The translations under genes were made by a program, and so were the position numbers. The notes below the pieces were generated by a model that saw only the letters and a list, made by a program, of their open reading frames with translations, was not told where the DNA came from and searched no databases. 64,000 bases of DNA. Origin: Halanaerobium praevalens DSM 2228. Lineage in GTDB: Bacteria; Bacillota; Halanaerobiia; Halanaerobiales; Halanaerobiaceae. Location of the stretch: assembly GCF_000165465.1 (NCBI RefSeq), contig NC_017455.1, positions 1,736,001-1,800,000 on the forward strand. The letters are read 5' to 3'. Positions 28,628 to 33,960 of this stretch are shown here, in pieces (position 1 is the first letter of the stretch; each line of letters opens with the position of its first letter).

Positions 28628-28649
28628 AAAAAATGCCGGTAATCCGGCA
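28628..28649 (-). terminator. Hairpin with T6 at the predicted 5' end of the GIY-YIG/pcrA transcript
   Basis: TGCCGG (28634-28639) pairs with CCGGCA (28644-28649) with a TAAT loop, followed on the minus strand by TTTTTT. It can end transcription of the hydrogenase cassette, whose last stop is at 28755. The promoter at 28655-28683 predicts a start at about 28648, so the same hairpin is also the first thing transcribed for the next operon. Confidence 0.8.
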
Positions 28650-28654
28650 CCTTA

Positions 28655-28754: not shown

Positions 28755-30170
28755 CTATTTAGCAAAATTTTGCACAAATTTTTTGGCTGCCTTTTGATTA
28801 ATCATTGTTGAAGGACCACCAATACAACCACCGGTACAAGCCATTCCCTCTAAAAAATTATAATCATTTTTACTTGCTTTAATTAAATAAAGTTCCTTTT
28901 TTAATTTGGCTAATCCATCAACCTGTTTACTTTTATAATCTACTGCTATTAATTTGCTTAAAGAATTTTCTAAACCACCAGCAAAAGCAAATTGTCTCCC
29001 TAATTTTCCAGCATCTGTTAAAGCTTCTTCAGCTTCCAATTCAGCTAAATTAATATTATAAGCAGTAAATAAGGCAACTAATTCTGTAAAAGTTATAACA
29101 TAATCAACCTCTTTATTTTTAAGTGCTTCTTCTTTTTTGGCAGTACAGGGACCAATAAATACTGTTTTAGTATTTTTGCTCTCACTTTTAACTGCTCTAG
29201 CTGTCAAAGCCATTGGTGATTCAGTTTCAGAAATCAAATTACTGAGCTCTTTAAATTCTTTTTCTACCATTTTTTTAAAAGCAGGACAGCAAGAAGATAA
29301 TAAAGTTTGATTAAGCTCTATTTTTTCTTTTAACTCTTCAGCTTCTAAATAAGCAGTTTCTTCTGCTCCAGCTGCAACTTCTCTAACTTGAGAAAAACCA
29401 ATTTTTTTTAGAGCATATTTAACTTTAGCTGCACTCTGCTGATAACCAAATTGTCCTACAAAAGCAGGTGCCAAAAGAGCTGCTAAATTACTTTTACCAT
29501 CACAAATTTCAATTGCAACTTGAACTAAATCACTAATTTCAGTTATTGCTCCAAAAGGACAAGCATTAATACAGCTACCACAACTAACACATTTTTCTCG
29601 ATCAATTTTAGCTTGACGATCTGCATTAGAGCTAATAGCTTCTAATTCACAAGCTCTACTACATGGCCTTTGATTTTCCAAAATAGCATTATAAGAACAT
29701 GTTTTAGCACATTTTCCACATTCAATACATTTATGTTGATCAATATAAGCTTTGTTCTGAATGATTACTATAGCATCAACTGGACAAGCATTAACACACT
29801 TATGAGCAACACAATTTCTACAGGCATCTGTCACTATATATTTGTCAATTGGGCAACTATCACAAGCTGTTTCAATTACTTGAACTATCTTATCACTCTC
29901 ATTTTTATGAGGTAATAAAGCTGCTAAGTCTTCTAAACTTTTTTCCTTATTCTCAGCAATATTAAAACCTAAAACTGCTTTAATTCTCTCATCTAAGATA
30001 GCTCTTTCTTTAAACTCACAACAACGATAGCGAGTAGATTCTTTAGTTATCATTTTTTGGGATAAACTAGCTATTTTTTTTACTAGTTCACCAGACCTCA
30101 CAAGTTTTAATAACTCAACATATAGTCTTCTTTTTAATTTAACAACCTCAGAAATAGTATTTTGACCCAT
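28755..30170 (-). CDS. [FeFe]-hydrogenase, group B-like
   Basis: A 471-aa iron hydrogenase. Ferredoxin-type Fe-S cysteines fill residues 103-204 (C117/C120/C125/C129, C148/C151/C154/C158, C170/C174, C194/C197/C200/C204). The H-cluster domain follows with SSCCP (292-296), GPCTAKKEE (340-348) and MACTGGCIGGP (443-453). The adjacent-Cys pair in the first motif keeps the proton-relay Cys, so it could be catalytic. The N-terminal 100 residues have an extra CC pair (50-51). Motifs suit group B rather than the classical group A. It is last in a five-gene operon; no maturation genes (hydEFG) are in the window. Confidence 0.85.
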   Translation of the reverse strand: MGQNTISEVVKLKRRLYVELLKLVRSGELVKKIASLSQKMITKESTRYRCCEFKERAILDERIKAVLGFNIAENKEKSLEDLAALLPHKNESDKIVQVIETACDSCPIDKYIVTDACRNCVAHKCVNACPVDAIVIIQNKAYIDQHKCIECGKCAKTCSYNAILENQRPCSRACELEAISSNADRQAKIDREKCVSCGSCINACPFGAITEISDLVQVAIEICDGKSNLAALLAPAFVGQFGYQQSAAKVKYALKKIGFSQVREVAAGAEETAYLEAEELKEKIELNQTLLSSCCPAFKKMVEKEFKELSNLISETESPMALTARAVKSESKNTKTVFIGPCTAKKEEALKNKEVDYVITFTELVALFTAYNINLAELEAEEALTDAGKLGRQFAFAGGLENSLSKLIAVDYKSKQVDGLAKLKKELYLIKASKNDYNFLEGMACTGGCIGGPSTMINQKAAKKFVQNFAK

Positions 30171-30182
30171 TTTTAACAGCTC

Positions 30183-30422
30183 CTATCTTATATTTTTCCT
30201 TATAATCTTATATAGTTTTTCAGGATTTAAATCTTGATATATTTTTCCATTAAACTTAATTACAGGTGCTTTGTCACAACAGTTATCAATACAGTGGGTT
30301 GTTTTAATTTCAATTTGATTTTTTAAGTCCAAATCTAATTCTTCTACTGCTTCTAATAAATCTGCTGCCCCCATTAAATGACAGGGAGTACCAATACAAA
30401 TTTTCAAAATATTGTCAGCCAT
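30183..30422 (-). CDS. Thioredoxin-like [2Fe-2S] ferredoxin
   Basis: A 79-aa thioredoxin-fold [2Fe-2S] protein of the NuoE/HydC C-terminal type. The four ligands are in a C-x4-C pair (C9, C14 in CIGTPCHL) and a C-x3-C pair (C44, C48 in HCIDNCCDKAP). An extra Cys, C49, adjoins the second pair. It likely passes electrons between the hydrogenase and the phosphatase-linked sensor, an inference from position: it lies 12 bp upstream of the group B-like hydrogenase and 19 bp downstream of the phosphatase gene. Confidence 0.88.
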   Translation of the reverse strand: MADNILKICIGTPCHLMGAADLLEAVEELDLDLKNQIEIKTTHCIDNCCDKAPVIKFNGKIYQDLNPEKLYKIIRKNIR

Positions 30423-30441
30423 TTATTCCACCTCCTTTAGC

Positions 30442-31596
30442 CTAAAACCATTCAATTTTAACTTCTTTTTTTATGCGGCGAAGTTGTTCAGAAATTTGAC
30501 TTATAATTTGACTTCTAATCCCTAAATTGATTGGTAAATTTAAACTTTGGTGTGATTCATTAACTGCTCTTCCGACAAAAAATTTAACACTATCACTTTC
30601 TAATAATAATCTAGTAAAACGAGAAGCTCCATCTTTTCCTTCAACAGGAATCTGGCCGGGCTTATATTTTTTTAATAAAGATAAAACTTTATTTAAAGTT
30701 AATAAACCTTCAGTTAAAAGGTCAAAACCATCCATTTTACTAGTAGGAGGTATATTTTTATCATAATACTTAAGACCTGGTTTTAATTCTTTATTTAATT
30801 CTCTAGCAGCTATTTGAGCTGTTGTTCCACCACTAATTATTTTTTTACCTTCAGCTTGAGAAATTTTTTTAGCCAAAATCTGATCATCTTCTTTTTTTAA
30901 GGGAGGACCACTCCAAATACTTAGCTTTCTCTTTTTTCTATATTTCATTCCAATAATTGTAAAATCATCACCAGCCTGATTATTATAAAAAGCATTAAAA
31001 ATTTTAACCAATTTATTAATACTATATTTTAAATCATTTTTATTTTTATTAACTGTTCTTTGAATCTCTTTGGCCACTCCATCCCAACCTAAACCAAAAT
31101 TTAATAAAGCTCCAATCCCAGCATGAGTAACTCCATCACTAACTAAAAATAGTTGATCTTGTCTTTGAAATTTAAAATTGGATTCTCTTATTTTTTTACC
31201 TTCTAATTCAAATTCATTATAATCTAATTTAATTACTTTATTATTTCTAAACAAAAAGGCAGCTGGAGTGTCAATTTCTATTAGTCTCAGCTGCTGGTCT
31301 TGGTCAATAATTAAAAATGCTAGAGTAGCATAAGCAATTCCCCTTACTTCACAAACTGGTAAGGTTGCTAAAATAGTTGATAATATTTCTTTTAAGGGTA
31401 GTTCCTTATCTAATAAACCAGAAGCTATTTTAGATGTTAGAGTAGATAAAATATTAGCTTTAATTCCACTGCCTAAACCATCAGAAAGCACTATAATCGT
31501 TTTATTTTCTTTTTTTATTATTTCTACATTATCACCACAAACTTCTTCTCCATATTTAGGAATTGAACGATAAAATTCTTCAAAAACTAATTCCAT
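30442..31596 (-). CDS. SpoIIE-type PP2C phosphatase linked to [FeFe]-hydrogenase
   Basis: A 384-aa Ser/Thr phosphatase. The PP2C-like domain (about 1-220) shows the metal Asp motifs CGDNVE (D22), VLSDGLGSG (D39), LVSDGVTH (D154) and AGDDFTI (D210/D211). Residues 225-384 form a further domain that I do not recognise, rich in Lys and with SGGTTAQIAARELN and GKDGASRFTRLLL. Similar phosphatases sit beside PAS-bearing sensory hydrogenases in other anaerobes. Its stop and start connect directly to its neighbours, and its start overlaps the sensory hydrogenase stop by one base. No partner kinase or anti-sigma gene is adjacent. Confidence 0.85.
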   Translation of the reverse strand: MELVFEEFYRSIPKYGEEVCGDNVEIIKKENKTIIVLSDGLGSGIKANILSTLTSKIASGLLDKELPLKEILSTILATLPVCEVRGIAYATLAFLIIDQDQQLRLIEIDTPAAFLFRNNKVIKLDYNEFELEGKKIRESNFKFQRQDQLFLVSDGVTHAGIGALLNFGLGWDGVAKEIQRTVNKNKNDLKYSINKLVKIFNAFYNNQAGDDFTIIGMKYRKKRKLSIWSGPPLKKEDDQILAKKISQAEGKKIISGGTTAQIAARELNKELKPGLKYYDKNIPPTSKMDGFDLLTEGLLTLNKVLSLLKKYKPGQIPVEGKDGASRFTRLLLESDSVKFFVGRAVNESHQSLNLPINLGIRSQIISQISEQLRRIKKEVKIEWF

Positions 31597-33323
31597 TAAT
31601 CTTCACCTGCTTGTAAAAGATCTGAGAGTTCAGTTAAAGCTGTTTTAGTTTCAACAGTTGTTTCTCCTAAAAGACCAGCAATTTCTTGTACTATCTGCAT
31701 TTGTTTATTAACAACCGTATTTGTCTTCTCTACTGCCACTTCTTTCATTTTTTTCATTTTTCGTCTTTGCTTTTCTTGATCACTAATATCAGTTAAAATA
31801 CCAACAATTACTTTATGCTCTCTCAGTGCAAAAATAGTTTGGTCAACCACAATAGCTTTATTCTTATAAGAACACTTTTGATGAATAATTCTTTGGTTCA
31901 AATCCCAAGCTTTTTGGAAATATTTACTGCTAATAAATTTATCTAATTTCATTCCTTCTAATTCTCTACTTTTTCGAGCAAACAATTCTCTAGCAACGGG
32001 ATTAAATTTTTGGATTTCCATTTCATTATTAACTACTATTATTGCATTATGAGAAGATTCGACTATAATTTGTGATAAAGATTCTGCTCTTGCTTTCATA
32101 TATGGAATACACATTTTCTTTTCTGCAAAACCATAATAAACAGCTTTTGCTTTTTCACGGCAGCTGGAATAACCACAACCACCACAATCTTTTTCATCTT
32201 CTTTATTTTCTTTAGCAATTGAAGCCAAAATTTTTCTAATCTCTGTTTCGGGAACTTCAGGTAAAATCATTTGCTTGTTTTTATGTTGCCGAAATAAATT
32301 AATTTCTCTATTTCTCGGTTTAAAGCTTTTAATTTTATTTTTCTTATTAGTTAATAAATAATTATGTACTTCTAATTCTTTAAGGGGAATACTCAAATCA
32401 TTATTAATAGCAGGGCCATTAATACAGCCACCCGAACAGGCAAGAAGTTCTACTAACTCTACTTTTATTTTTTCTTTATCTTTTTTTAGATCTTCTAAAA
32501 AATTTATTATATTATCTAAACCACTTAAATGTAGAGCTTTATTGCCACAGCCTGGATCTGCTTTTAATAAATCAGCTGCTTTAACTGCTCCTCCAGAAAG
32601 AGCATAATCAGCAGTTAACATTGTAGCTGGTAAATCAACTTTCTGCTTTTCTAATTTTGAAATTTTTATTTTTTTCTTTTCTAAAAATAATCTTAAATGT
32701 TCAAAAGTAATTACAATATCTGGTTTATAATCTCTTCTTTTTTCATTTTTAGATTCTTCAATTTTAGCTAAACAAGGCCCAATAAAAACTATTCTCGCTT
32801 TTTTATATTGATTTTTTAGTTCTGCAGTCTGTAACATCATTGGTGATAAAACTGAAGCTAATTGTGGAATTAATTCTGGATAATGTTTTTCAATTAAATT
32901 AACTACCGCAGGACAGCAAGATGTAATTAAAGTGTTGTCCATTTTTCTTCTTTCTCTTTTAAATTCTTGTACAACCCGAGTTGCAGCTTCTGCAGTCTCA
33001 GCAACATAATCAAAACCAATTAATTTTAATGCTTTAATTATTTGTCCAGGTTCAAATTCAGGAAAAGCAGCTACAAAAGAAGGAGCAATTGATGCTATTA
33101 AATAACTATCTGATTCTAAAAAGGCCTCTAATTTTTTTTCTTCAAATAAAGCACTTTTTGCACCTTGGGGACAAGTTTTAATACAATTACCACAATAAAT
33201 ACATTTTTCTTCAATAATAAAAGCCTGATTATCTTTAAAACCAATTGCTGCTACTGGACATTCTCTTAAACATTTATGACAATCTTTACAACTAGCAGGT
33301 TTAACAATTAAAGTTTCATTCAT
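31596..33323 (-). CDS. PAS-containing sensory-type [FeFe]-hydrogenase (group C-like)
   Basis: A 575-aa hydrogenase with a signalling tail. In order: two [4Fe-4S] sites (C12/C15/C18/C22 and C41/C44/C47/C51), the H-cluster domain with TSCCP (134-138), GPCLAK (182-187) and LLACSGGCINGP (293-304), a further four-Cys Fe-S domain (C380, C383, C388, C405), a PAS domain at about 410-520, and a helical tail at 520-575 able to form a coiled coil. No kinase domain is attached. This layout fits group C (HydS-type) enzymes proposed as H2 sensors. The frame is open to 33374, but ATG 33323 gives the normal start and overlaps the ferredoxin gene by 8 bp. Confidence 0.87.
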   Translation of the reverse strand: MNETLIVKPASCKDCHKCLRECPVAAIGFKDNQAFIIEEKCIYCGNCIKTCPQGAKSALFEEKKLEAFLESDSYLIASIAPSFVAAFPEFEPGQIIKALKLIGFDYVAETAEAATRVVQEFKRERRKMDNTLITSCCPAVVNLIEKHYPELIPQLASVLSPMMLQTAELKNQYKKARIVFIGPCLAKIEESKNEKRRDYKPDIVITFEHLRLFLEKKKIKISKLEKQKVDLPATMLTADYALSGGAVKAADLLKADPGCGNKALHLSGLDNIINFLEDLKKDKEKIKVELVELLACSGGCINGPAINNDLSIPLKELEVHNYLLTNKKNKIKSFKPRNREINLFRQHKNKQMILPEVPETEIRKILASIAKENKEDEKDCGGCGYSSCREKAKAVYYGFAEKKMCIPYMKARAESLSQIIVESSHNAIIVVNNEMEIQKFNPVARELFARKSRELEGMKLDKFISSKYFQKAWDLNQRIIHQKCSYKNKAIVVDQTIFALREHKVIVGILTDISDQEKQRRKMKKMKEVAVEKTNTVVNKQMQIVQEIAGLLGETTVETKTALTELSDLLQAGED

Positions 33324-33564
33324 TTTTTTCAGACAGTAAATGCTTTTTAAATATTTCCTGAGCATTCTCCTCATTAACTGCCTCTATTTTTTGACCATTT
33401 ATTTCGATATTAACTCCCTCAGTACAATTACCTTGGCAAAAACTACCAGAAATTTCAACTTGATCTAAATTGTGTTTTTTTATTTCTTCTTTAAAAATTT
33501 CTATCACTTTTTCAGAACCCTTTAAATGACAACTACTACCAACACAAATTATTATTTCTCCCAT
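33316..33564 (-). CDS. Thioredoxin-like [2Fe-2S] ferredoxin, first gene of the hydrogenase cassette
   Basis: An 82-aa [2Fe-2S] thioredoxin-fold protein with ligands C7, C12 (CVGSSCHL) and C43, C47 (FCQGNCTEG). It differs from the 30183-30422 copy in surface charge and lacks the extra Cys. It heads the operon and overlaps the sensory hydrogenase, suggesting translational coupling and a physical partnership. AGGAGG-like sequence (GGAGGC) precedes the ATG. Confidence 0.88.
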   Translation of the reverse strand: MGEIIICVGSSCHLKGSEKVIEIFKEEIKKHNLDQVEISGSFCQGNCTEGVNIEINGQKIEAVNEENAQEIFKKHLLSEKNE

Positions 33565-33642
33565 AATTTTAGCCTCCTTTATTTGAGATTTATATTAAAA
33601 ATTAAATTAATAAGTAAATTTTGGATAAATATAAAAATCACA

Positions 33643-33682
33643 AAAAGATGCTCTGGGGAGAGCACCTTTTGCATAGAGTATA
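33643..33682 (-). promoter_or_regulatory. Leader of the hydrogenase cassette: -10 element followed by hairpin and T5
   Basis: Minus strand: a -10-like TATACT lies at 33682-33677 without a good -35, predicting a start near 33670. Directly downstream, TGCTCT and AGAGCA pair (within 33648-33666, GGGG loop on the plus strand) and are followed by TTTTT. As no minus-strand gene lies upstream, the hairpin cannot simply end an earlier transcript. It may attenuate the cassette or protect the mRNA 5' end. Confidence 0.5.
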
Positions 33683-33689
33683 TTTTAGC

Positions 33690-33960
33690 ATTTGGGCAAA
33701 TTTATTAAAAATCTCTTTTTATTTGAGATTTTAAAGCTTAAAAAATTAAATATGTGAATAATATAACAATAACCAATAAAAAATATAATTATTTTTTAAA
33801 ATACTTAACTAACACCTATAGAATAACATGAGTCCTTATTTATTTCAAGGATTAAAGTTCTTTATTTCACATTATAATAACTTTTTAAATAATATTAACT
33901 CTACTAAGCTTAAATAAGCTTAGACTTCTATCTTTTTTAAACTGTTTTATATCTTTTTAA
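33690..33960. other. Gene-free AT-rich region between hydrogenase cassette and hflX
   Basis: No supported gene. Two weak hairpins were seen: 33708-33715 with 33725-33732 (8 bp), and 33831-33837 with 33847-33853 (7 bp, one G-U). They may be part of divergent regulation of the cassette and hflX, but nothing more specific can be read. Confidence 0.45.

Follow-up and report, generated by a model that had tools for sequence, protein, structure and literature searches.

An hfs-type operon joining a sensor-type [FeFe]-hydrogenase, a PPM phosphatase and a group B hydrogenase in Halanaerobium praevalens

Whether anaerobes ferment to H2 plus acetate or to alcohols is set by H2 pressure, a choice for which the hfs operon offers one of few genetic handles. 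In Thermoanaerobacterium saccharolyticum, hfsABCD encodes a PAS-containing [FeFe]-hydrogenase, a serine phosphatase and a ferredoxin-linked group B-type hydrogenase (Shaw 2009; PMC5707799; PMC11837493). Strains deleted for hfsA or hfsB form more ethanol and express more adhE, and hfsB deletion also elevates hydrogenase activity; loss of hfsC, hfsD or the whole operon brings no rise in ethanol, the effect requiring intact hfsC and hfsD (PMC5707799). With hydAB and nfnAB in place, hfsD alone is enough for a high ethanol yield (PMC11837493). The HydS/HydA2 cluster of Ruminococcus albus likewise unites a PAS sensory hydrogenase, a phosphatase and a ferredoxin hydrogenase, and sensor, phosphatase, hydrogenase and adhE are co-regulated there with H2 (PMC6776011; a passage of PMC13277313 also cites the cluster). 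HydDB defines a group C3, "phosphatase-linked (putative)", by an H-domain with PAS and an adjacent Ser/Thr phosphatase (PMC5037454). Here we analyze a five-gene cassette at 28755–33564 of a 64,000-nucleotide stretch (the window) of Halanaerobium praevalens DSM 2228, positions 1736001–1800000 of a single-contig genome of 2,309,262 bases. The cassette is an already described hfs-type operon of the HydDB C3 class, here in a halophile, and not a new system. Our additions, drawn from sequence comparison, are a Rex-like operator, an adhE scar, APH/RIO-type kinase neighbors and a phosphatase C-terminal domain without a Pfam family.

The cassette and its proposed function

The five genes lie on the − strand with 12–20 bp gaps or short overlaps between neighbors, in the transcription order TRX1, HfsB, HfsC, TRX2, HfsD, and all were found where a preliminary description of this DNA had placed them. 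Domains were called by Pfam and NCBIfam profile searches against curated cut-offs. TRX1 (33316–33564), a thioredoxin-like [2Fe-2S] protein of 82 amino acids (PF01257, 32.3 bits, above cut-off), holds the position equivalent to hfsA, a placement by gene order and not by sequence. It is followed by an HfsB-like sensory [FeFe]-hydrogenase of the HydDB C3 type (31596–33374), an HfsC-like SpoIIE/PP2C (PPM) phosphatase (30442–31596), the 79-residue TRX2 (30183–30422; PF01257, 47.3 bits, likewise above cut-off), which is paired with the group B hydrogenase, and the HfsD-like group B [FeFe]-hydrogenase itself (28755–30170). Both small proteins, as predicted, are thioredoxin-like, with at least four Cys in each sequence. 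A terminator-like hairpin 3′ of HfsD (28630–28653, − strand), recognized by consensus match only, may mark the operon end.

This order is that of hfsABCD, except that in the window hfsC and hfsD are separated by an additional gene for a small [2Fe-2S] protein. T. saccharolyticum HfsA is described as aligning poorly with known proteins; TRX1, by contrast, is clearly recognizable as thioredoxin-like and [2Fe-2S]. The second hydrogenase built into the unit, presented as a distinguishing feature in the preliminary description, corresponds to HfsD of hfsABCD, for which single-gene deletions are published (PMC5707799; PMC11837493), and the phosphatase-linked C3 class is already defined in HydDB (PMC5037454). 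HfsB carries the four H-cluster Cys and a C-terminal PAS, adjoins a PP2C/SpoIIE phosphatase and falls in the C3-type clade, apart from A, B and D; no difference from C3 was seen, the assignment being made by features and not with the HydDB classifier. Unlike the R. albus cluster, which has adhE and a reported adjacent kinase, the window has no kinase next to the cassette, and its adhE is reduced to a scar.

We consider it probable that HfsB senses H2 or redox state and acts through HfsC on a phosphoprotein, with HfsD making H2. As a low-turnover [FeFe]-hydrogenase, HfsB would use its H-cluster to detect H2 or the redox state of ferredoxin; the state of HfsB would be relayed via the Fe-S domain, the PAS domain and a conserved C-terminal helix to the adjacent HfsC. 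HfsC would in turn alter the phosphorylation of a target protein on which fermentation flux depends, through both hydrogenase activity and the expression of adhE. HfsD and its [2Fe-2S] partner would form a ferredoxin-type H2-forming enzyme. The route put forward in the preliminary description, in which electrons pass through the small Fe-S proteins and alter phosphatase activity, is hypothetical. The present analysis itself establishes which genes are there, their classes, the residue patterns, the synteny and the operator enrichment. The regulatory influence on hydrogenase and adhE is taken from published work on T. saccharolyticum and R. albus; that HfsB contacts HfsC, which way the signal runs and what it acts on are what we infer. 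Several points weigh against this proposal. In the literature read, we found no biochemical evidence for any C3 hydrogenase controlling an HfsC phosphatase. HfsC begins at its catalytic domain, so that the regulatory part lying N-terminal in SpoIIE/RsbU is missing. Of 38 Halanaerobiales genomes, 20 have no cassette, and in the window strain adhE no longer adjoins it.

Sensor, phosphatase and catalytic hydrogenase

A tree of 96 hydrogenases resolves four separate clades, A (HydA), B, C3-type and D, with SH-like approximate likelihood ratio test (SH-aLRT) values of 100, 81, 99 and 100; the clades are labeled from gene context and family model, with no HydDB reference rows among the sequences. 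HfsB and HfsD fall into different clades, consistent with the earlier distinction between a PAS-tailed sensor-type enzyme and a group B enzyme. HfsD matches TIGR04105 (FeFe_hydrog_B1) at 525.8 bits against a curated cut-off of 450, and HfsB scores 226.6 bits, below that cut-off.

HfsB contains a pair of Fer4 clusters, an H-domain (PF02906, 179 bits), an extra Fe-S domain (PF04060, FeS), a PAS region and a C-terminal helix. The PAS-like stretch of the window protein is sub-threshold (20 versus a Pfam cut-off of 27 bits); PAS models hit up to 29/34 HfsB orthologues, and in the AlphaFold2 model the topology of this region is PAS-like, with a long helix after it. Since the orthologue consensus starts at 33323, translation probably begins there (575 amino acids) rather than at 33374. 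The C-terminal helix (31596–31780; residues 531–589 in the 592-residue numbering; consensus VAQEIAGLLGETTAETK) is strongly conserved, and Q541, Q546, L552 and G553 are invariant in the post-PAS tail of the orthologues. It is possible that this helix is the contact for HfsC.

The preliminary description had taken the adjacent Cys pair as a sign that both hydrogenases may react with H2. Residues were numbered by the CpI sequence, taken from PDB alignments. All four H-cluster ligands (C300, C355, C499 and C503) are kept in 106/106 HfsB-type sensors, including that of the window. The large majority of these sensors have another residue in place of E279, mostly Tyr; C299 is Cys in 60/106, S319 is Ser in 5/106 and M497 is Met in 14/106. 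By contrast, E279, C299, S319 and M497 are kept, together with Gly at 353, in 45/45 group B enzymes, and the window HfsD has E279, E282, C299, S319, M497 and Gly at 353, thus a complete proton path. The argument from the Cys pair thus holds well for HfsD but poorly for HfsB: group B keeps the proton-path residues, whereas in the sensors C299 is often replaced and the others are gone. Among sensory enzymes, 17% are reported to have Cys at the position of the proton-path Cys, and TmHydS functions without one (PMC10055695).

Going by its TIGR04105 score, these residue patterns and its clade, it is probably HfsD that acts as the catalytic enzyme here and forms H2. It resembles CpIII, a group B [FeFe]-hydrogenase (PMC12138974), in having Gly at the M353 position and in keeping the proton-transfer Cys, and differs from it in carrying SSCCP instead of TSCCCP. 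The other group B hydrogenase of the genome also has its own [2Fe-2S] partner, of the same kind as TRX2.

HfsC carries a SpoIIE domain on residues 30–219 (PF07228, 65.8 bits versus a cut-off of 25), and the following ~165 residues match no Pfam family, in agreement with the extra C-terminal domain noted earlier. We delimit a catalytic part (residues 1–221) and a private C-terminal domain (residues 222–384; 30445–30933). Like SpoIIE/RsbU phosphatases (PMC11418112), HfsC has the PPM fold and invariant metal-binding Asp, namely D22, D39, D154, D210 and D211 across 35 sequences; unlike them, it has the C-terminal extension and no N-terminal regulatory part. Its identity with SpoIIE proper was rejected: the equivalog model TIGR02865 gives only 37.3 bits versus 490.8, and what is shared is the PPM domain.

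The C-terminal domain is modeled with high confidence (predicted local distance difference test, pLDDT, 91.8) as a Rossmann-like alpha/beta fold with a conserved GGTT loop, and is nearly always fused to the HfsC phosphatase (398 genomes). PDB sequence search yielded nothing usable and Foldseek no match at E ≤ 0.001. A likeness to domains of molybdopterin-type oxidoreductases (VIA-align Z 8–9.5, root-mean-square deviation 3.0–3.8 over 115–120 residues) was rejected; because these values lie near those of models without a clear relative, no function is drawn for the domain. Stand-alone copies of 156–159 amino acids occur in three genomes of one genus, directly 3′ of HydA in HydCBA operons (L056 7599–8075, L057 7623–8102 and L058 7945–8415), with full HfsB–HfsC elsewhere in the same genomes.

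Distribution and upstream region

Relatives of HfsC are present in 94/299 sampled genomes of the phylum (E ≤ 1e-8). Across a non-identical set of 112 loci, HfsB lies directly 5′ of HfsC in 107, and a small TRX gene precedes HfsB in 67. Downstream of HfsC, a group B hydrogenase follows in 42 and HydCBA in 13, with HydBA elsewhere nearby in 18. The survey thus describes HfsB–HfsC as the invariant core and the catalytic hydrogenase, group B or HydABC, as exchangeable, with adhE and a kinase as recurrent neighbors and the C-terminal domain as private to HfsC. Within Halanaerobiales, HfsC is present in 18/38 genomes, and HfsD lies within about 0.4 kb after it in 16 of these 18, judged by position; where the cassette is present, its order is thus conserved, as the preliminary description had asked to be checked.

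This distribution bears on an alternative in which HfsB is no sensor at all, only a redox subunit or restraint of HfsD, the phosphatase being incidental. When hfsB is deleted, total hydrogenase activity goes up and hfsD is said to be deregulated (PMC5707799; PMC12288451), as such a restraint would predict, yet HfsB tracks HfsC and not HfsD, and loci without a group B gene downstream have HydCBA or no hydrogenase there. We regard this explanation as quite improbable.

The region upstream of TRX1 contains a Rex-like operator, TTGTTATATTATTCACAT (33752–33769, no strand assigned), with 1 mismatch and 205 nt upstream of the gene. Sites of this type (TTGTKAN6TMACAA, ≤1 mismatch) occur upstream of 33/123 loci, against a mean of 0.88 and a maximum of 4 sites in 60 Markov controls. 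A strict scan of the whole window for TTGTTAA-type sites stayed at chance level (32 found versus 29 expected). The single window site is weak alone, because the signal emerges only from the relaxed-pattern comparison of upstream regions. Binding of Rex ahead of [FeFe]-hydrogenase operons is reported for other clostridia (PMC8457756). Going by the enrichment of this pattern, transcription of the operon is probably also controlled by the NADH sensor Rex.

Between the operator and TRX1 lies a conserved element (33641–33715, − strand) that is near-identical in four relatives. In three of them, the close relatives G309, G312 and G313, an intact adhE stands between the divergent upstream gene and TRX1, and the element is its end; in the window and in the fourth, G311, there is no adhE at this place, and its last codons and terminator persist. 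At the level of the locus, this comparison indicates that the window strain has lost the adhE beside its cassette and retains a scar, the final codons and terminator hairpin. The only Rfam match in the leader fell below the gathering score and was judged chance; the leader hairpin is better read as the adhE terminator, and the match was set aside. Across 124 loci, adhE lies near the cassette on the same strand in 19, three of the genus included, and in 18 of those ≤2.6 kb upstream of HfsB. In loci L196, L197 and L198, which belong to close relatives, adhE is directly upstream of the cassette.

The preliminary description had stressed that neither a kinase nor a maturase is adjacent. This holds in the window, where no maturase adjoins the cassette and HydG lies 1.27 Mb away. 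For the kinase it does not hold at every locus: in 17/124, an APH/RIO-type kinase encoded on the same strand as HfsB stands ≤0.7 kb upstream of it, mostly between adhE and the cassette, with both the APH and the RIO1 model above the Pfam cut-off. The kinase has ~249 amino acids and occurs in gut and rumen Clostridia (L128 3757–4506 and 16 further loci). These adhE and kinase neighbors agree with the genetic connection of hfsB to adhE described earlier (PMC5707799) and with the R. albus cluster (PMC6776011). They raise the question of whether this kinase is the partner that HfsC counteracts, as the order adhE–kinase–TRX1–HfsB–HfsC–HfsD would suggest, the target being a fermentation regulator or an enzyme of the AdhE branch and the kinase lost or located elsewhere in Halanaerobium. 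A Ser/Thr kinase adjoining HydS in R. albus, cited in a passage of PMC5707799, fits such a pairing; on the other side, no APH/RIO-type kinase was found in the window or the fetched Halanaerobiales loci, the whole genome not having been searched for it. We hold this pairing to be possible but rather doubtful.

Other hydrogenase and kinase genes of the genome

Of the five [FeFe]-hydrogenase genes in the genome, two are HfsB and HfsD, one encodes another group B enzyme and the remaining two belong to a ten-gene HydABC operon. This operon, at a distance of 34–42 kb from the cassette and slightly beyond the window (L076 7654–15916), runs DRTGG–HATPase–group D hydrogenase–DRTGG–PHP–HydC–HATPase–TRX–HydB–HydA, and most of the 20 further genomes that were inspected show the same order. 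Of two small HATPase_c_2 kinases in the genome, one belongs to a complete STAS/PPM module and the other to this operon, which has no phosphatase.

HfsC, a phosphatase without a kinase, and the RsbW-type kinase of the HydABC operon, without a phosphatase, could be two halves of a split partner switch, HfsC dephosphorylating a DRTGG protein that the neighboring RsbW/SpoIIAB-type kinase phosphorylates. The DRTGG1–HATPase–group D hydrogenase order is conserved, and HfsC and DRTGG1 co-occur (69/92 versus 59/207 genomes; 31/42 versus 18/74 families). This association may merely mirror HydABC fermenters, however, and it is one-sided, for which reason we demoted the idea: DRTGG1 is absent from 23/92 HfsC genomes, and the kinase persists in 14/20 Halanaerobiales genomes without HfsC. 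In three other genomes of the window strain's genus (G307, G308 and G310; about 99% complete), HfsC and HfsD are absent and the HydABC-linked kinase is retained. No HATPase or DRTGG gene adjoins the cassette in any of the 112 loci, and no STAS gene lies near it. A split switch of this kind is unlikely. A broader version, in which HfsB–HfsC and the group D sensor with the RsbW-type kinase and DRTGG protein form opposing arms on one phosphoprotein, is a long shot in our estimate; if true, two H2-sensing hydrogenases would act from opposite sides, fermentation-wide.

The genome encodes a compact Rsb-like module (STAS–PPM phosphatase–STAS–HATPase) at G000:C1:478181–480729, and HydG lies 9 kb further, at 489276.

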